From the NCBI GenBank assembly GCA_003165615.1, contig PLWR01000272.1, positions 1 to 9,862 on the forward strand: a stretch of DNA of 9,862 nucleotides, read 5' to 3'. This DNA comes from Acidobacteriota bacterium (GTDB lineage Bacteria > Acidobacteriota > Terriglobia > UBA7540). The notes beneath the pieces were generated by a model that did no database searches, was not told where the DNA came from, and worked only from the letters and a program-made list of their open reading frames with translations. Made by a program: the position numbers and the translations under genes. Below are positions 4,887 through 9,862 of this stretch, piece after piece; positions within the stretch are counted from its first letter, which is position 1; each line of letters begins with the position of its first letter.

Positions 4887-5603
4887 TTACAGGTAGAACA
4901 AACTCAACCGTGGAATCTTGTAATGTTCGAGCAGCCGGTTCTTAAGGAATCGCCGCTCCAACAAATCGACCTCTGGCGCCGCCATCTTGCGCCGAAACGG
5001 AATGAGGCCTCGATCCACTTCCGCGCGTAACTGCGCCAGGACTTCCACAGGTGTCCCGCGCAGGAGGGAAGCATTCAGCTTTTCTTCCAGCGCCGTCAGG
5101 TTTCTTTCCGTCTCTTCCAAGTCACCCATCGCCCCTGCCTGGGCGCGCGTCCCGAAAGTTTGAAGTGCGGCGGCGGCTTCCGCCAGTTCGTCCGCCAACA
5201 CTTGCTTTCCTTCGCCTCGCGCCTGCTGGCCCGCGCTTTGCACCGCCCCCGCGCAGCGCGCGAGAAATCGCGAAATCTCCTCCGTTGAAAACGACGCTTG
5301 TGCCTCCGCCTTTGCCGCGCGGGAAGTTCCTCCTTGCGCCGCCATCGCCCGGCCTTCCTCGACGGCGCGGAAAACTTCCTGCGAACAATACGCCAGGGTG
5401 TTCACCTTGCGATAGCTGCGCTTTCCCGTTTTGAATTTCTCAAAGGAGCGCTCGATTCCCGCCAGCACCGCTTCCAGCGGGAACCCCTGCTCTTTCCATG
5501 ATTCCACCAGCGCCCAATCAAGCGGGGAAAGCAGGACAGGTTCGGATCGGCACTTGCGGAACTGCTCCTCGATTTCGGTGAAGTAGTTGAAATAGTTTTC
5601 CAC
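4887..5603 (-). CDS. Unrecognised helical protein, first gene of the rlmD-comEC operon
   Basis: I do not recognise a named family. The 238-residue product has no signal peptide or membrane segment and looks cytoplasmic and mostly helical. An aromatic, acidic N-terminus (ENYFNYFTEIEEQF) is followed by LSPLDWALVESWKEQGFPLE at 25-44, whose pattern recalls the DnaD-type helical module of replication-initiation proteins; this is only a resemblance. A KVNTLAYCSQEVF segment (66-78) and an Ala/Glu/Gln-rich region (about 90-160, possible coiled coil) come next, and the C-terminus is basic-hydrophobic (FLKNRLLEHYKIPRLSLFYL). GTG start with AGG 6 nt upstream (5610-5612). It lies 9 nt before rlmD and is surely co-transcribed, so a role in RNA/ribosome or DNA metabolism is possible but unproven. 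Upstream DNA is repeat island, and no clear promoter is visible. Confidence 0.78.
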   Translation of the reverse strand: MENYFNYFTEIEEQFRKCRSEPVLLSPLDWALVESWKEQGFPLEAVLAGIERSFEKFKTGKRSYRKVNTLAYCSQEVFRAVEEGRAMAAQGGTSRAAKAEAQASFSTEEISRFLARCAGAVQSAGQQARGEGKQVLADELAEAAAALQTFGTRAQAGAMGDLEETERNLTALEEKLNASLLRGTPVEVLAQLRAEVDRGLIPFRRKMAAPEVDLLERRFLKNRLLEHYKIPRLSLFYL

Positions 5604-5612
5604 GGTAAACCT

Positions 5613-5643
5613 AGGTGCCAGGTATCAGGTGCCAGGTGTCAGG
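5613..5643 (+). repeat. Tandem 14-mer repeat (AGGTGCCAGGTRTC)
   Basis: Two adjacent 14-mers (5613-5626 and 5627-5640) differ at one base and are followed by a partial third unit (AGG). The reverse-complement counterpart with the same GGTGTC/GGTGCC/GGTATC vocabulary is at 6129-6158. The array abuts the ribosome binding site of the gene starting at 5603. Confidence 0.7.
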
Positions 5644-5660
5644 AGCAATTTCAAAGTTTA

Positions 5661-5709
5661 AGGATAAAGGGTAAAGGATAAAGGGTGAAGGCTGAGGGGT
5701 GAAGGCTAA
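5661..5709 (+). repeat. Heptanucleotide tandem array, seven units
   Basis: Seven gap-free 7-mers: AGGATAA, AGGGTAA, AGGATAA, AGGGTGA, AGGCTGA, GGGGTGA, AGGCTAA. The consensus is AGGNTRA. The period of 7 is strict although units vary, which suggests an old, diverged tandem array. Confidence 0.75.
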
Positions 5710-5713
5710 CCCT

Positions 5714-5728
5714 GATTTCTCACCAGCC
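5714..5728 (+). repeat. Left arm of 15-bp inverted repeat
   Basis: GATTTCTCACCAGCC here is exactly reverse-complementary to 6012-6026. It lies between the 7-mer array and the REP-like unit. Confidence 0.7.
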
Positions 5729-5748
5729 GTGGAGCGCAAGCCTTGCAA

Positions 5749-5830
5749 GCCCCAACGGGGCGGGATAACTCAGCCCAGGCCAACGGCCTGGGTTTCGGTA
5801 ACAAAGCTCTACGCCAAGCCCTGAAGGGGC
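5749..5830 (+). repeat. REP-like element, left copy (three hairpins)
   Basis: Three short palindromes in fixed order: GCCCCAACGGGGC (5749-5761), CCCAGGCCAACGGCCTGGG (5774-5792), GCCCTGAAGGGGC (5818-5830), with gaps of 12 and 25 bp. The same triple occurs inverted at 5899-5978 with gaps of 23 and 12. A GGAG at 5731, followed by a small GCAA/TTGC stem, recalls the GTAG/GGAG head of REP elements mobilised by RAYT transposases; that comparison is inference. Confidence 0.8.
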
Positions 5831-5898
5831 GTCCCAACCTTTCGAAATTGTCTCGCGATTGCCGATTCGTCCCCAGGAGTGGAGCTGAAAAGTGTATC

Positions 5899-5978
5899 GC
5901 CCTTTCAGGGCTCGGCCGTGTAACAATCTGTAAACCCAGGCCGTTGGCCTGGGCTGAGTTATTGCGCCCCTTTGGGGC
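5899..5978 (-). repeat. REP-like element, right copy (inverted)
   Basis: Reverse-oriented copy of the left unit: GCCCTTTCAGGGC (5899-5911), CCCAGGCCGTTGGCCTGGG (5935-5953), GCCCCTTTGGGGC (5966-5978). The shared core around the middle hairpin (AATAACTCAGCCCAGGCCAA in this orientation) is nearly identical to the left copy, while the hairpin 2-3 spacer is diverged. Together they make a BIME-like head-to-head pair. Confidence 0.8.
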
Positions 5979-6011
5979 TGAAAACTTCAATCGCCGAGAG
6001 AAAACCGCCGA

Positions 6012-6026
6012 GGCTGGTGAGAAATC
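6012..6026 (-). repeat. Right arm of 15-bp inverted repeat
   Basis: Exact reverse complement of 5714-5728, placed symmetrically outside the right REP-like copy. Confidence 0.7.
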
Positions 6027-6053
6027 CGGGCTAAAGGGCAAAGGGTGGCCAAT

Positions 6054-6109
6054 TCAGCCTTTATCCTTCACCCTTTACCCTTCACCCCTTGTTCATCACC
6101 CTTTACCCT
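6054..6109 (-). repeat. Heptanucleotide tandem array, eight units, inverted
   Basis: In-phase 7-mers on the + strand: TCAGCCT, TTATCCT, TCACCCT, TTACCCT, TCACCCC, TTGTTCA (degenerate), TCACCCT, TTACCCT. They are reverse complements of the AGGNTRA family at 5661-5709. A few 7-mer units in the opposite orientation occur near 6034-6047. Confidence 0.75.
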
Positions 6110-6128
6110 TTTGAGCTTCAACCTTCAT

Positions 6129-6158
6129 CCTGGCAGCTGATACCCGGCACCCGACACC
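6129..6158 (-). repeat. Outer GGTGCC/GGTATC repeat, inverted copy
   Basis: The reverse complement reads GGTGTCGGGTGCCGGGTATC followed by AGCTGCCAGG, built from the same hexamer words as 5613-5643 but in different order. It marks the right edge of the island. Confidence 0.6.
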
Positions 6159-6217
6159 TTTCTTGCTCCGCGCCTCCGCGGCGAAGGCCAGCTAGCCTCC
6201 GGTCGCTATTTTTAGGC

Positions 6218-6244
6218 TTGACAAGAGTAGCAAGGTAGTATACA
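6218..6244 (+). promoter_or_regulatory. Candidate sigma70-type promoter in gene-poor region
   Basis: A perfect TTGACA (6218-6223) is followed after 15 bp by TATACA (6239-6244); TACACT at 6241-6246 would give 17 bp. Transcription would start near 6251 and run into 6250-6720, where no recognisable gene exists, which is why an untranslated RNA is possible. The spacing is slightly short. Confidence 0.4.
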
Positions 6245-6509
6245 CTTGAGGGGTTGTTGCAAGGCAGGCCCCGCCATGGTTAAAGCTCTCGCCCCCTCAG
6301 CCACTGCTCCCGCAGTCAAGGCTCGAACCTCACGACAAAGCCACCAGGATTCAAGGCGCCGAGTTGCAGGCGTTGAGCCCGGGAGATCAAGCGGGTGCCA
6401 ACTCTCTTCGGCACGCTTTCCGCAGCTTTCGGACATTTATTCACCCTTCCAGAGGGTTCAACGTGGACAAATGGTCCGAGCAAAGAGGAAGAATACAAAG
6501 AAAAAAGAA

Positions 6510-6543
6510 TTTTCAACGACCAAAGCCGGAATGTTGTTGAAAA
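6510..6543. other. Stem-loop, 11-bp stem
   Basis: TTTTCAACGAC (6510-6520) can pair with GTTGTTGAAAA (6533-6543) with one G-U pair, leaving a 12-nt loop. No T-run follows on the + strand, so it is not a typical terminator. Confidence 0.45.
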
Positions 6544-6582
6544 CATTAGAAACACGGACAAAATGTATACCTATTTGACGGC

Positions 6583-6632
6583 TTTTTGACACGAAACGTC
6601 GTTCATTTTGCACTTTTTGTAACGAAACGTCG
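6583..6632 (+). repeat. Pair of 19-bp direct repeats spaced 31 bp
   Basis: TTTTTGACACGAAACGTCG (6583-6601) and TTTTTGTAACGAAACGTCG (6614-6632) match at 17 of 19 positions, 31 bp start to start, about three helical turns. A weaker third copy (GACGCGAACCGACGG, from 6651) follows 32 bp after the second. This could be a protein-binding array or the multiple-repeat end of a decayed insertion sequence. Confidence 0.6.
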
Positions 6633-6731
6633 GACATATTTGTCCCCAATGACGCGAACCGACGGCTAAAAGCTGCATTTTTGATGCAAATGACAGCAAA
6701 GAGGGCTCGGTGCCTATTGTACGATTCAGGT

Positions 6732-6756
6732 GGCTCCGAATTCCGTATTCCGAGCC
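6732..6756. repeat. Imperfect inverted repeat, 10-bp arms
   Basis: GGCTCCGAAT (6732-6741) and ATTCCGAGCC (6747-6756) are reverse complements except one position, with a 5-nt loop. No T-run follows on either strand, so it is not a classical terminator. Confidence 0.5.
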
Positions 6757-6819
6757 TCGCAATCCTCACTCCTGATTTCGCCCTCCAGATTGGGAAGATC
6801 CCTCCACTCCGCCATACAG

Positions 6820-6848
6820 TTGTAACTTATCCCTTCGAGGGGTAGACT
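6820..6848 (+). promoter_or_regulatory. Candidate promoter for the CHAD gene
   Basis: TTGTAA (6820-6825), 17-bp spacer, TAGACT (6843-6848): each hexamer matches the sigma70 consensus at 4 of 6. The start would fall near 6855, giving a leader of about 100 nt. The same bases (GAGGGG at 6837-6842) would be the ribosome binding site of a possible small ORF starting at 6849, so the two readings compete. Confidence 0.35.
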
Positions 6849-6974
6849 ATGAGCTCCTTTATTCGAGGCTTTATGATCGCCCGGGTGCGCGGGTTTCCCA
6901 ACCTGCGAATTCCCATCGGGGCGGCGTATTCCCTCCCAATTTTTTCGAGGCTACTTCCATGGAAGAGGCATTAA
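6849..6974 (+). CDS. Possible 41-aa small protein or leader peptide before the CHAD gene
   Basis: ATG at 6849 is preceded by GAGGGG with 6-nt spacing, an excellent ribosome binding site. The frame runs 41 codons to TAA at 6972-6974, overlapping the CHAD start (6959) by 16 nt in another frame. The product (begins MSSFIRGFMIARVRGFPNLR) is basic and partly hydrophobic, with no family I know. A second in-frame ATG at 6873 has GAGG 4 nt upstream, inside a TTCGAGGCT 9-mer that recurs before the CHAD ATG (6862-6870 and 6944-6952). The overlap would suit translational coupling. It needs a promoter upstream of 6820, and chance cannot be ruled out at this length. Confidence 0.3.
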   Translation: MSSFIRGFMIARVRGFPNLRIPIGAAYSLPIFSRLLPWKRH

Positions 6975-8017
6975 ACCCGGGCCACAGCGTCGCAACGGTG
7001 GGGCCGGATGAACCGTCCAGGCAGGCGGAGGCGGCCGCGCCCAAAAACGTGCTTCTGCTGCCCTACGAGGAAAGCGCCGGAAAGGTCCGCGAGCTCGCGC
7101 TGCACCAACTGAATCGCCTGATGTCGTTTGAAGCCAGAGTCCTGAAGGGCGACGACGCCGACGCCATTCATGATATGCGTGTGGCCAGCCGCCGCCTGCA
7201 GCAAGTCCTGGACCTGCTCTATCCCAAGCCGCGCCCGCAGGAGTATCGCCGCATGCGCCGCCAGATTCAACGCTGCCGCCAGGTGCTGGGTGACGTGCGC
7301 AACTGCGACGTCCTGCTGGAGATTGTCGGCCGCTCGCTGGGAAGAAAGCGCTCCGCCCGTCGTGAGGCTTGGACCTCGGTGCAACACTTCCTGCTGATGC
7401 GCAGGTCGGAAACCTTTTCGCGCACCATCCGCAAGATCGGCAAGATCAACCTCTCCGTCTTTTACGTCAACCTCAAGGAATTCCTCCATCGCGATAAGGC
7501 GCATAGCCATGTTGCCGAGCATCACGCCCACAGCGCGGGAGCTCCGCGTCCCGGGTTTGCCAAAGACCTCACCAGCGCGCTTGAATCCACATGGAAGCGG
7601 TTTGAAGACCAGATTGAGCTTTCGCACCGGGATCCGCGCCCCGAAGCCATCCACGGCGCGCGCATTGCCACCAAGCGATTGCGCTATCTGCTGGAGGTTT
7701 TTCATGAGTTCGCCGTGCCCGGCAGCGCTGACGCCCTGGTCTGCCTGCGGCAATTGCAAAAGGACCTGGGGGAATGGCACGACCTGGAAGTGCTGGAGCA
7801 GATGATGATTGAGTTGCTGGCGCGGAGGGAATTTCTGCGCGATCATTTGCCGCTGGCGATGCAGGTTGAGAAGCTGGTTTTGCGCAACCGGGAGAGCAAA
7901 GCTGAACTGGTGGAGACGTACTTCCAGTTGTCCCGCGAATCGGCGGAGATTCACCGATTGAAAGAGTGGGTCACCTATCTGCTGGCGTCGCCTTCCACAG
8001 CAATGGTCAAAGCCTGA
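6959..8017 (+). CDS. CHAD domain-containing protein (polyphosphate-binding fold)
   Basis: CHAD domains are alpha-helical bundles with basic surfaces that bind inorganic polyphosphate. The 352-residue product has both halves of the domain: IHDMRVASRRLQQVLDLL at 70-87 and its internal repeat IHGARIATKRLRYLLEVF at 231-248, with the conserved His71/His232 and the Arg/Lys clusters behind them; each half also has a matching LGDVRNCDVL (110-119) or LGEWHDLEVL (270-279) segment. A His-rich linker (HSHVAEHHAH, 182-191) separates the halves. There is no CYTH triphosphatase domain and no signal peptide, so this is a stand-alone cytoplasmic CHAD protein. The first ~35 residues look disordered. ATG start with GAGG at 6947-6950, 8 nt upstream. 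The 3' end overlaps the convergent kinase gene by 43 bp. Family sure; cellular role unknown. Confidence 0.9.
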   Translation: MEEALNPGHSVATVGPDEPSRQAEAAAPKNVLLLPYEESAGKVRELALHQLNRLMSFEARVLKGDDADAIHDMRVASRRLQQVLDLLYPKPRPQEYRRMRRQIQRCRQVLGDVRNCDVLLEIVGRSLGRKRSARREAWTSVQHFLLMRRSETFSRTIRKIGKINLSVFYVNLKEFLHRDKAHSHVAEHHAHSAGAPRPGFAKDLTSALESTWKRFEDQIELSHRDPRPEAIHGARIATKRLRYLLEVFHEFAVPGSADALVCLRQLQKDLGEWHDLEVLEQMMIELLARREFLRDHLPLAMQVEKLVLRNRESKAELVETYFQLSRESAEIHRLKEWVTYLLASPSTAMVKA

Positions 8018-8829
8018 TCCTCAGCCGCGGATTCAGCCTGGTCGGTGGTTGAGGGTTTGGCGGGGGCGGGCATTTCCAGCACCTTGTGAGTGGCTGCATC
8101 AACAGGTTCGGCGGGCGGTGCCACGACGGAAAACAGCGGTTCGCGCGGCTCGCCCCTCAGCACGCGGGCCACACCGGCACGAAGATGTTCAAACACCGTG
8201 CGCGGGTCGGGCGTGGCGTCAATGACTTCGAAGTTGTACTCGTTTGCCAGGTTGTCAAACTCGGTCAGAAGCTCGGTTTGATACTTGCGGAAGCTGTCGT
8301 ACATATCCTCGCTGGGGTGAATGTCCATGCCCGACTCCCAATAATCGAAGCCGCGGGAGAAGACCACGCGAGGGATGAGGTCGTCCACGCCGATGCGCAG
8401 GTAAAACGTGGCGTCGGGCTTCAGGGCAAAGCCGTAAGCATTGCGAATCCAGCGGGGATCAGCGCCGCGCACAATGGCCCGGGCGATGAGCGAATAGATG
8501 TAACGGTCGGTGAGAACCACAAAGCCCGCACGCAGCGCGGGAACGATCTCATGTTCCAAGCGGTCGGCGAAATCAGTGGCATAGAACAGGCTGAGCGTGA
8601 TGCGCCCCAGCGTGTGGCCTTCCTTGGCCTGCTGAATGCCCTTGCCCGCAAGCTCCGAGCGCTTGATGGCGGTGTCAAGAACGGCGCGGCCCTGCTGCTC
8701 AAGCCACGGGCGCAGCAGGCGGATCTGCGTCGAGCGGCCAACCCCGTCAGTGCCTTCAATCACGATCAGCTTGCCGGACATTTCCGCCAGGTTCATGCCG
8801 GGCAGAGGAGCGGCATAGGTCTCTCTCAT
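7975..8829 (-). CDS. Thymidylate kinase-like P-loop protein, second of a tandem pair (Arg in P-loop)
   Basis: A P-loop nucleoside-monophosphate-kinase family protein of 284 residues. The Walker A motif reads GTDGVGRST (26-34), with Arg32 where the catalytic Lys is expected. Also present: ATDFADRLEH (84-93), the DRY motif VVLTDRYIYS (104-113), and YWESGMD (163-169) in the lid region. True thymidylate kinases usually carry an A-Y-Q after DRY...S; here it is ARAIVRG, so dTMP specificity is doubtful. The last ~60 residues are rich in Pro/Ala/Glu and look disordered, unlike the upstream paralogue. Start ATG overlaps the upstream stop as ATGA, with GAGGG (8837-8841) 7 nt upstream, which decides the start over Met12 or Met17. 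The 3' end overlaps the CHAD gene. Could be a degenerate or regulatory partner, or a kinase with altered chemistry. Confidence 0.85.
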   Translation of the reverse strand: MRETYAAPLPGMNLAEMSGKLIVIEGTDGVGRSTQIRLLRPWLEQQGRAVLDTAIKRSELAGKGIQQAKEGHTLGRITLSLFYATDFADRLEHEIVPALRAGFVVLTDRYIYSLIARAIVRGADPRWIRNAYGFALKPDATFYLRIGVDDLIPRVVFSRGFDYWESGMDIHPSEDMYDSFRKYQTELLTEFDNLANEYNFEVIDATPDPRTVFEHLRAGVARVLRGEPREPLFSVVAPPAEPVDAATHKVLEMPAPAKPSTTDQAESAAEDQALTIAVEGDASR

Positions 8830-9509
8830 GGCGCAACCCTCAATCTTTTCGCCTGGGCCAGCTTGGCCTTCACGGTCTGCCGCATGTAGGCCTGCTGCTC
8901 TTCAATGGGAAGCGTGGCATCCACGGTGGTCAGGTCGAACTCCGGAACCATCTTCTCGTACTCATCCAGGATTCGCCCCTGGAAGATGCCAAAGCTCTCT
9001 TCTGCGTCCTCGCTCAAGCCCAGATCCATTCCGGCCTCGTAATACTTCACGCCGTTGCGGCCATCCAGAATGCGGTTGATGGCCACGTTCAGGGGAACGC
9101 GGAAGTAGAATGCGGCGGTGGGCTTCACGGCAAAGCTGTAAAGCTCGCGCACCCACTGGCGATCCATGCCGCGCACCACGTCGCGCGCAAACGCCGTGTA
9201 GATATAGCGGTCGCACAGCACCACGGCGCCAGCTTTGAGCAAGGGGAGGATGTTGTGCTCCATGCGGTCAGCAAAGTCGGTGGCATGAATCAGGGAGAAA
9301 GTGGAGGGCGTCAGCGCCTGCCGCTTCTTGCCGCGCTTGGTGGTTTCACGGACGAGCGGGGAGGAGTTCCACTCACTGAAGACCACTCCGTAACCTTCCG
9401 CTTGCAACCACTGGTGCAGAAGAGCGAGCTGAGTGGATTTTCCCGAGCCGTCGATTCCCTCAACCACGAAGAGCTTGCCGGGAAAGCGATGCTCACCGTA
9501 CCGTTTCAT
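8826..9509 (-). CDS. Thymidylate kinase-like protein, first of a tandem pair (intact P-loop)
   Basis: A P-loop kinase of the dTMP kinase superfamily, 227 residues, about the usual length. The Walker A motif GIDGSGKST (18-26) is intact; ATDFADRMEH (76-85), VVLCDRYIYT (96-105) and KYYEAGMDLGLSED (155-168, lid region) follow. It clearly resembles the downstream gene along its whole length, so the pair arose by duplication. As in its partner, ARDVVRG replaces the AYQ segment of classical thymidylate kinases, so the true acceptor may not be dTMP. Start ATG at 9509 is chosen because GGAG (9517-9520) sits 7 nt upstream; the longer frame would run into the divergent acetyltransferase gene. The stop overlaps the next start (ATGA), so the two are translated together. 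Annotation as dTMP kinase is plausible but unproven. Confidence 0.87.
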   Translation of the reverse strand: MKRYGEHRFPGKLFVVEGIDGSGKSTQLALLHQWLQAEGYGVVFSEWNSSPLVRETTKRGKKRQALTPSTFSLIHATDFADRMEHNILPLLKAGAVVLCDRYIYTAFARDVVRGMDRQWVRELYSFAVKPTAAFYFRVPLNVAINRILDGRNGVKYYEAGMDLGLSEDAEESFGIFQGRILDEYEKMVPEFDLTTVDATLPIEEQQAYMRQTVKAKLAQAKRLRVAP

Positions 9510-9552
9510 GATGGCACTCCGCTTAACAAACCTCTGCTTGAATTGAAACGCA

Positions 9553-9558
9553 ATTGTA
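9553..9558 (-). promoter_or_regulatory. Candidate extended -10 promoter of the kinase operon
   Basis: On the - strand TGTTACAAT (9561 to 9553) is an extended -10 (TG-N-TACAAT, 5 of 6 in the hexamer). No good -35 is seen. Predicted start near 9546 gives a leader of about 36 nt that includes the GGAG ribosome binding site. An AATTG/CAATT inverted repeat at 9541-9555 overlaps it and could be an operator. Confidence 0.4.
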
Positions 9559-9609
9559 ACACAGGCCTCAGGGGCGGGAATAGCGAGCGGGGGGGGAATG
9601 CGGCTCCAT

Positions 9610-9638
9610 TTGGCTATCGACAGAACCGGGGTTACAAT
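9610..9638 (+). promoter_or_regulatory. Candidate promoter of the acetyltransferase gene (leaderless)
   Basis: TTGGCT (9610-9615), 17-bp spacer, TACAAT (9633-9638). The expected transcription start coincides with the ATG at 9645, and no Shine-Dalgarno sequence lies in front of it, so the mRNA would be leaderless. Confidence 0.5.
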
Positions 9639-9644
9639 TCCACC

Positions 9645-9862
9645 ATGCTGAACATCCGAAAAGCTATAGCCGACGACATCCCCCTCATTTTGGACTTCAT
9701 TCGCGAACTTGCCGATTACGAACGCCTGGCGCATGAGGCCGTCGCCACTCCGGAAGATTTGCTGCGGGACGGATTCTCCGGCGAACCGCGATTCCACGTG
9801 GAAATTGCCGAGTGGGAGGGTGAACCCGCGGGCTTCGCGCTCTGGTTCTACAACTACTCCAC
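9645..9862 (+). CDS. GNAT family N-acetyltransferase, N-terminal part (runs off window)
   Basis: 72 codons are visible. The N-terminus MLNIRKAIADDIPLILDFIR is the usual first strand and helix of GNAT acetyltransferases, which move acetyl from acetyl-CoA to amines. The next segments (ELADYERLAHEAVATPEDLL; then AEWEGEPAGFALWFYNYS) match the subfamily close to spermidine/spermine (diamine) N-acetyltransferases, in which FYNYST precedes the acetyl-CoA-binding half. The CoA-binding motif lies beyond the window, so integrity cannot be judged. Divergent from the kinase operon with 135 bp between starts. Substrate is an inference from subfamily only. Confidence 0.85.
   Translation, partial: MLNIRKAIADDIPLILDFIRELADYERLAHEAVATPEDLLRDGFSGEPRFHVEIAEWEGEPAGFALWFYNYS

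Follow-up and report, generated by a model that had tools for sequence, protein, structure and literature searches.

How can several kinds of repeat come to lie on both sides of one centre, in the same order from the outside inwards and in opposite orientation? The question is raised by an island at positions 5613–6159 of a 9,862-nucleotide stretch from an Acidobacteriota genome (GCA_003165615.1, contig PLWR01000272.1; the window refers to this whole stretch), in which a first-pass annotation had described four nested layers of 14-mer words, 7-mer arrays, a 15-bp perfect inverted repeat and a REP-like unit. All four layers are indeed present where that annotation had placed them, and its claim that the order is beyond chance agrees with the folding of 5611–6160 as single-stranded DNA, which gives a z score of −14.3 with 0/100 shuffled sequences as stable; 5710–6030 folded in the same way gives −11.9, again with 0/100. 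We read the island as three nested palindromic elements, namely a period-7 unit, an IS1380-type MITE and a three-hairpin end pair of Y1 type that lacks its gene (Table 1), and put the probability of this reading at about 0.85. Since each of the nested elements is an inverted repeat, the mirror order arises automatically.

Table 1. Features of the island and of the adjoining gene, in window coordinates
Feature	Positions	Strand	Basis
Flanking conserved gene, 238 aa, no Pfam match	4887–5603	−	island starts 10 bases before gene start
Outer word array (AGGTRYC)4.4, left arm of period-7 palindrome	5613–5643	+	TRF period 7, 4.4 copies; word family also in relatives
Heptad array AAGGRTA/AAGGGTG, left arm	5660–5709	+	TRF; ends in the 4-base left target duplication; in register with 6035–6047 after insert removal
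Left target-site duplication CTAA	5706–5709	+	exact repeat of 6031–6034
321-bp MITE-like element, IS1380-type ends, without transposase gene	5710–6030		terminal inverted repeat pair and exact 4-bp target-site duplication
Left terminal inverted repeat CCCTGATTTCTCACCAGCC	5710–5728	+	18/19 positions match right terminal repeat
Acido-Lenti-1 (RF01687), left copy	5748–5792	−	37.4 bits against gathering score 37; model R1 39.2 bits
Outer small hairpin, left three-hairpin end	5749–5761		stem 5, loop 3; inside left Acido-Lenti-1
Large hairpin, left end	5774–5792		stem 8; inside left Acido-Lenti-1
Inner hairpin segment, left end (GCCCTGAAGGGGC, 5818–5830)	5813–5831		one G-T pair; pairs with 5898–5916, 89%
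Centre, 66 bases, position of tnpA in transposase-bearing relatives	5832–5897		hairpin order and spacing compared with Y1 loci
Inner hairpin segment, right end (GCCCTTTCAGGGC, 5899–5911)	5898–5916		pairs with 5813–5831; hairpin comparison
Acido-Lenti-1 (RF01687), right copy	5935–5979	+	43.3 bits against gathering score 37
Large hairpin, right end	5935–5953		stem 8; inside right Acido-Lenti-1
Outer small hairpin, right end	5966–5978		inside right Acido-Lenti-1
Right terminal inverted repeat (CCCGGATTTCTCACCAGCC, minus strand)	6012–6030	−	pairs with left terminal repeat
Right target-site duplication CTAA	6031–6034	+	exact repeat of 5706–5709
Remainder of plus heptad array, displaced by insertion	6035–6047	+	AAGGGCA (including the A at 5709) followed by AAGGGTG
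Heptad array, right arm of period-7 palindrome	6053–6110	−	TRF; pairs with left array at 73–90%, several registers
Outer word array, right arm	6138–6159	−	word matches

The perfect 15-bp inverted repeat GATTTCTCACCAGCC (5714–5728 and 6012–6026) belongs to a 22-nt pair that matches at 91%, the REP-like arms (5748–5795 and 5932–5979) are 48 nt long and complementary at 94%, and an additional inner pair (5813–5831 and 5898–5916, 89%) leaves a centre of 66 bases (5832–5897). The mirror nesting of the layers is therefore borne out, but the heptad layer and the palindrome do not share a centre, contrary to the description, since plus-strand heptads are also found at 6035–6047, to the right of the inner palindrome. 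This matters for one of the two origins that had been proposed, the duplication of a single composite unit in inverted form with later divergence of the halves. Such a duplication would account for the presence of every layer on both sides in mirror order, but it does not agree with the patchy match of the arms (94%, 91% and about 80%), with a heptad array that is split off-centre, or with the unequal spacers (5729–5747 and 5980–6011), which differ in length and share little similarity.

The 15-bp inverted repeat is a portion of longer terminal repeats, CCCKGATTTCTCACCAGCC, flanked by CTAA. When 5710–6030 and one CTAA are removed in silico, the left heptad array joins 6035–6047 in exact register; the repaired array reads AAGGATA, AAGGGTA, AAGGATA, AAGGGTG, AAGGCTG, AGGGGTG, AAGGCTA, AAGGGCA, AAGGGTG, which TRF reports as 8.9 copies with 0% indels. 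Given the CTAA duplication and the in-register repair, we conclude that a palindromic element was inserted in an older heptad array. The second proposed origin, in which repeats were inserted around an older palindrome, thus had the order of events reversed. The exact CTAA flanks, together with the occurrence of the layers singly elsewhere, also speak against an inverted duplication of the composite, which we rejected on the in-register heptad repair and which is hardly credible.

The words and heptads had been counted as two of four unrelated classes, but both have period 7 and they co-occur elsewhere in a fixed order. Around the 52 distinct word sites found in all loci gathered at that stage, the window's two included, plus heptads lie within 320 bp on the inner side in 7 cases and on the outer side in 0, minus heptads in 5 versus 0, and opposite words in 19 versus 0; in this tally pairs enter once from each end, and a good number of sites lack both heptads and opposite words. 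Because heptads and opposite words fall on the inner side only, we treat words and heptads as one palindromic intergenic unit. The locus L100 in genome G001 represents this outer unit without an insert, as do L099 and others (G and L numbers are our labels for genomes and loci). Short tandem heptad repeats (STRR) are also known in cyanobacteria. It had been argued that the nesting would be a coincidence if the layers occurred independently elsewhere without preferred order or orientation. They do occur independently, but not without order, as each layer is a palindrome with a preferred inner order; the nested layers look mirror-ordered because every layer is itself palindromic.

The inserted element is short (321 bp), has no transposase gene and exists in several copies, with relatives in G001 and G020, as expected of a MITE. 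Its terminal inverted repeats of 19 bp match at 14/15 and 18/19 positions and have CTAA on both sides. A relative with 78% identity, on contig C50 of G001, covers query positions 92–417, and the terminal pattern is dispersed through both genomes (56 G001 and 122 G020 matches at ≤3 mismatches, compared to 8 and 3 for a reversed control). A script applied to the window together with 55 G001 and G020 loci yielded 37 terminal-repeat pairings, alternates counted, 8 of which, the window's included, have an exact 4-bp duplication, and all 8 duplications are YTAR. Searches with the MITE gave no match in phage records and matched two plasmid records, both from Thiodictyon.

The assignment to IS1380 comes from locus L189 in G023, where an IS1380 transposase gene (NF033539, 351.5 bits) is located between CTAG-CCCGCATTTCTCACC and GGTGAGAAATGCGGG-CTAG. 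These ends differ from the window's terminal repeat by one base, and L189 thus represents an autonomous partner with nearly the same ends. It is the single case among 30 IS1380 loci in which both ends (≤3 mismatches) are accompanied by an exact duplication, and its genome is neither G001 nor G020; the two PF13701 matches in G001 and the two in G020 include no autonomous partner with these ends. Among the other IS1380 loci, L188 and L217 have one good end each, and L191 carries the variant CCCGGATTATTCAT at each end, next to TTAG and CTAG. The window element resembles the IS1380 family and its MITEs in the CCC at the start of the terminal repeat, in the 4-bp YTAR duplication and, through L189, in the IS1380 transposase found between near-identical ends, but this copy is without the gene and has a REPIN-like interior.

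That interior consists of two copies of Acido-Lenti-1 (RF01687), which Rfam places in the class sRNA and which was rated ‘y’, probably RNA, by Weinberg et al. 2010 (PMC2864571); both arms in the window score above the gathering score of the family described there. The motif is found in 10 of the 12 first relatives, with 47 matches in G001, and in 50 of 199 genomes sampled evenly across the phylum, a scan run with stricter filters than that of the 12. Neighbouring copies tend to be divergent: among the loci retrieved with the motif, divergent pairs account for 18 of the 23 neighbouring copies and are 153–377 bases long (232 in the window). L042 and L049, which repeat L033 and L038, do not enter this count, nor do five weak rows of L052, L279, L303 and L306. 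The arrays L292 and L293 were counted apart and hold 12 pairs, 2 of them divergent. These two and L307–L346, in G211 and G169, are arrays of Acido-Lenti-1-like copies whose copy number differs between the two genomes, which are ∼95% identical across most of the sequence compared (two 200-kb pieces each, compared by the listed motif-like matches and alignment blocks rather than by every indel). The tag on the 5′ side of the large hairpin is usually NTAG, and is TCAG in the window; in chosen lists rather than among every hit, GT[AG]G, the tag 5′ of the hairpin foot in REPs, was found in 21/49 flanking and 10/48 dispersed copies, and NT[AG]G in 41/49 and 43/48.

With a covariance model built from 24 copies (model R1), nine matches were also obtained on a plasmid of Candidatus Thiodictyon syntrophicum (NZ_CP020372.1; W01), which has two divergent pairs in the piece labelled L347.

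Acido-Lenti-1 is associated with genes for Y1 (IS200/IS605-like) transposases. A model R1 match (E ≤0.01) lies within 450 bp of the Y1 gene at 38 of 59 loci and on both sides at 26, in 23 of which the left copy is on the minus strand and the right copy on the plus strand, while 21 of the 59 have no model R1 match within 450 bp. Excluding the 11 loci that fed the model leaves 48, with a match at 27, on both sides at 18 and in this orientation at 15. These counts omit L248 (a copy of L159) and matches with E >0.01, and keep both L260 and L265, which come from closely related genomes. The same model gave no match in 60 control loci (30 IS1380 and 30 word loci, 178,817 bases). The Rfam RF01687 model (E ≤0.3) matches at 11/20 and 11/20 Y1 loci, chosen from 31 and 29, and at 0/20 when applied to 20 of the 30 IS1380 loci.

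The association extends to whole genomes. Of the 199 genomes, 44 have a Y1 match and 50 have RF01687; both are found in 38, Y1 only in 6 and RF01687 only in 12 (Fisher P = 5e-24, uncorrected for kinship, which inflates the significance). The Y1 profile for this comparison was made from three Y1 proteins adjoining Acido-Lenti-1. G009 has 43 copies of the motif and no PF01797 match, and incomplete MAGs may explain part of the motif-bearing genomes in which no Y1 match was obtained.

The arrangement of hairpins is shared as well. At five of nine chosen loci (L144, L158, L257, L266 and L140), the Y1 gene is bracketed by six hairpins in the order small, large, small, tnpA, small, large, small, with a large stem of 8 bp and gaps of 10–13 and 20–29 bases; the series is partial at L118, L159, L273 and L349. 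In the window the gaps are 12 and 25, then the centre, then 23 and 12, so that the series is that of the Y1 loci with the gene absent. Its hairpin at 5818–5830 was missed by the hairpin script because of the G-T pair and was detected in the inverted-repeat comparison; hairpins in the equivalent place adjoin the Y1 genes in the same five loci. When a hairpin test was applied to the 59 Y1 loci, 24 passed on both sides, 13 on one side and 22 failed on both. Random windows in the control loci passed on both sides in 0/3000 cases and on one side in 15/3000, and those in G211 and G169, which carry the motif arrays, in 28/3000 and 63/3000.

Outside the Acidobacteriota, a Persicobacter plasmid (Bacteroidota; L349) has 43- and 19-nt inverted repeats around a Y1 gene, an architecture recognized by eye. 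None of five plasmid Y1 loci (L348–L352) scores with model R1, nor does it match anywhere on the whole plasmids of L348 and L349; the upstream inverted repeats of L348 are of another kind. A plasmid search with the Persicobacter Y1 protein found nothing beyond the two records already known, and no Y1 relatives were found in the viral contigs searched.

We consider it likely that Acido-Lenti-1, despite its listing as a ‘small RNA’, is no RNA gene and makes up two thirds of each three-hairpin end in a family of Y1 single-stranded DNA transposons of Acidobacteriota, with at least one Bacteroidota plasmid case. These would be the cognate ends for Y1 subclass 1.2, and the island would be a REPIN carried inside an IS1380 MITE, so that two unrelated transposases could move it. 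If instead Acido-Lenti-1 were a functional small RNA or a cis-acting RNA, as its Rfam class and the rating ‘y’ by Weinberg et al. (PMC2864571) would have it, the proximity to Y1 genes would reflect hitch-hiking. Some genomes with many copies have no Y1 match, as that would allow, and the stems covary, with two-sided changes in 10 of 11 pairs, although such changes fit RNA and single-stranded DNA equally. The divergent pairs, the high copy number, the arrays of varying copy number and the preferred orientation in which Y1 genes are flanked all argue against an RNA, which we find improbable. In the part of the literature naming Acido-Lenti-1 that was available, we found no link to a transposase.

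The Y1 proteins themselves can be compared with known transposases. All four proteins scanned (L144, L159, L349 and L140) score above the cut-off of the NCBIfam model transpos_IS200 and none reaches that of REP_Tyr_transpos (80 bits), with 20.1 and 21.6 bits for two and no match for the other two. Of 19 proteins, 17 have Y-x3-Q, in the exact form Y-x3-Q-x2-HH in 12 and with QxxRH or QxxHR in 5, and no such motif was found in L138 or L118. Some proteins have DH[IV]H as the HUH motif, others NH[VL]H or DHAH, and by sequence the nearest entries of known structure are transposases, 2xm3 and 2f4f among them (E about 1e-4). In a tree of the 19 proteins, those linked to Acido-Lenti-1 do not form one clade, with 2 changes for each label. 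The system thus appears to work in a REP-like manner without having a RAYT in the strict sense.

As in the REP, REPIN and REPtron systems with RAYT (TnpA-REP) transposases (PMC2817692, PMC6006769; see also PMC3116915), doublets of inverted palindromes occur in many copies and bracket a gene for a Y1 HUH transposase. The differences are that here each end has three hairpins rather than one, the tag is mostly NTAG, and the proteins have Y-x3-Q instead of the Y-x3-NP of RAYT and fall below the REP transposase cut-off. Another counterpart is TnpA-Y1 subclass 1.2, listed by Quentin et al. 2018 (PMC6006769) with the signature Y---Q--HH, found mainly in Cyanobacteria and Bacteroidetes, and with ‘no’ for REP. 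That signature is exact in 12 of our 19 proteins, and the assignment is by this motif; the genes found here are from Acidobacteriota and have repeated three-hairpin ends. The TIRYT elements, including Koribacter ORF1552 (Di Nocera et al. 2013, PMC3733652), likewise include Y1 genes of Acidobacteria with long inverted repeats on both sides, part of which belong to a repeated family; the word Rfam is absent from the main text of that paper. Acido-Lenti-1 is a probable RNA in PMC2864571, whereas the motif is read here as two of three transposon-end hairpins.

The same terminal-repeat shell can hold different interiors, which bears on whether the composite moved as one. Acido-Lenti-1 pairs lie within the shell in the window and at L109, L111, L112, L114 and L116, while eight loci in G001 (L168–L170, L172–L174, L176 and L177) have a different palindromic cassette by eye, 328–403 bp in total, with no Acido-Lenti-1 match inside those eight shells; the matches of L172 fall outside its element. 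These eight shells with quite different interiors would be expected if the core palindrome had entered an IS1380-type MITE that had already landed in the window, and the composite had never moved as a unit. However, the combination of terminal repeats and Acido-Lenti-1 interior recurs in G020, where the sequence from terminal repeat to core looks alike by eye, and L111 and L112 have exact YTAR duplications of their own, so that a late entry of the core seems rather unlikely. At L120 (G020, contig C134, 1259–1684), an Acido-Lenti-1 MITE appears by eye to be itself interrupted by another repeat element.

We favour a composite that moved as one, for which the following history can be proposed. 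The oldest layer is an intergenic period-7 palindrome with words outside, heptads inside and inverted arms. A 321-bp miniature element with IS1380-type ends then entered the left heptad arm at CTAA, duplicating those four bases. The interior of this element is a divergent pair of three-hairpin ends, represented by Acido-Lenti-1, that elsewhere brackets a Y1 gene and has no gene here. TnpA of IS200/IS605 recognizes hairpins of element ends and of REPs in single-stranded DNA, and a Y1 transposase from elsewhere would probably recognize the hairpins of this pair in the same form of DNA; because the transposase would be supplied elsewhere, the pair can be viewed as a REPIN-like non-autonomous unit. 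Such a pair would presumably have become the interior of an IS1380-type MITE and then have been spread by the IS1380 transposase.

If Acido-Lenti-1 marks transposon ends, its annotations as non-coding RNA would change, and a Y1 subclass published as being without REPs would gain a recognizable substrate. This reading also touches a 2026 study (PMC13298647), which suggests that Acido-Lenti-1 may help to regulate proteases of Tannerella; its passage on them reports no transposase nearby.

The island also coincides with a change of gene order. The 238-aa gene has relatives in Acidobacteriota MAGs (81% identity in L001), and coaX is found no more than 250 bases upstream of it in 24 of 27 relatives (among the three others, L027 has just 276 bases upstream); a tblastn search of the window gave no coaX. 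In L001 the word family is found directly behind coaX, in the same gap. The CHAD gene on the other side of the island is, in G020, divergent to another gene, which by its appearance we take to be ilvD-like, and not to the operon of the 238-aa gene. A junction of two regions in or near the island (window 5603–6960), of the kind left by a rearrangement, is thus indicated, and mediation of the rearrangement by the repeats is a possibility. The island shows that mirror-ordered repeat stacks can arise when palindromic elements nest, with no inverted duplication involved, here at a break in gene order.

The position between divergent units had suggested an action on transcript ends, and strong hairpins right before the 238-aa gene could be kept as a bidirectional terminator or insulator. 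However, consensus scans found no terminator-like site within 5613–6159 and no minus-strand promoter-like site in 5500–7000, and coaX occupies this place in those 24 of 27 relatives; retention for such a function is accordingly a poor prospect.

Three further features were noted in the neighbourhood. Between the island and the CHAD gene, a consensus scan gave a sigma-70-like promoter match, TTGACA-17-TACACT, at 6218–6246 on the plus strand. About 52 bases of the CHAD-gene leader (6510–6561) recur, twice, on contig C222 of G001; the matching sites are L089 2540–2591 and L083 2817–2868 and 3109–3161. Finally, the minus strand of 7975–9797 encodes two neighbouring thymidylate-kinase-like genes with a 4-base overlap.
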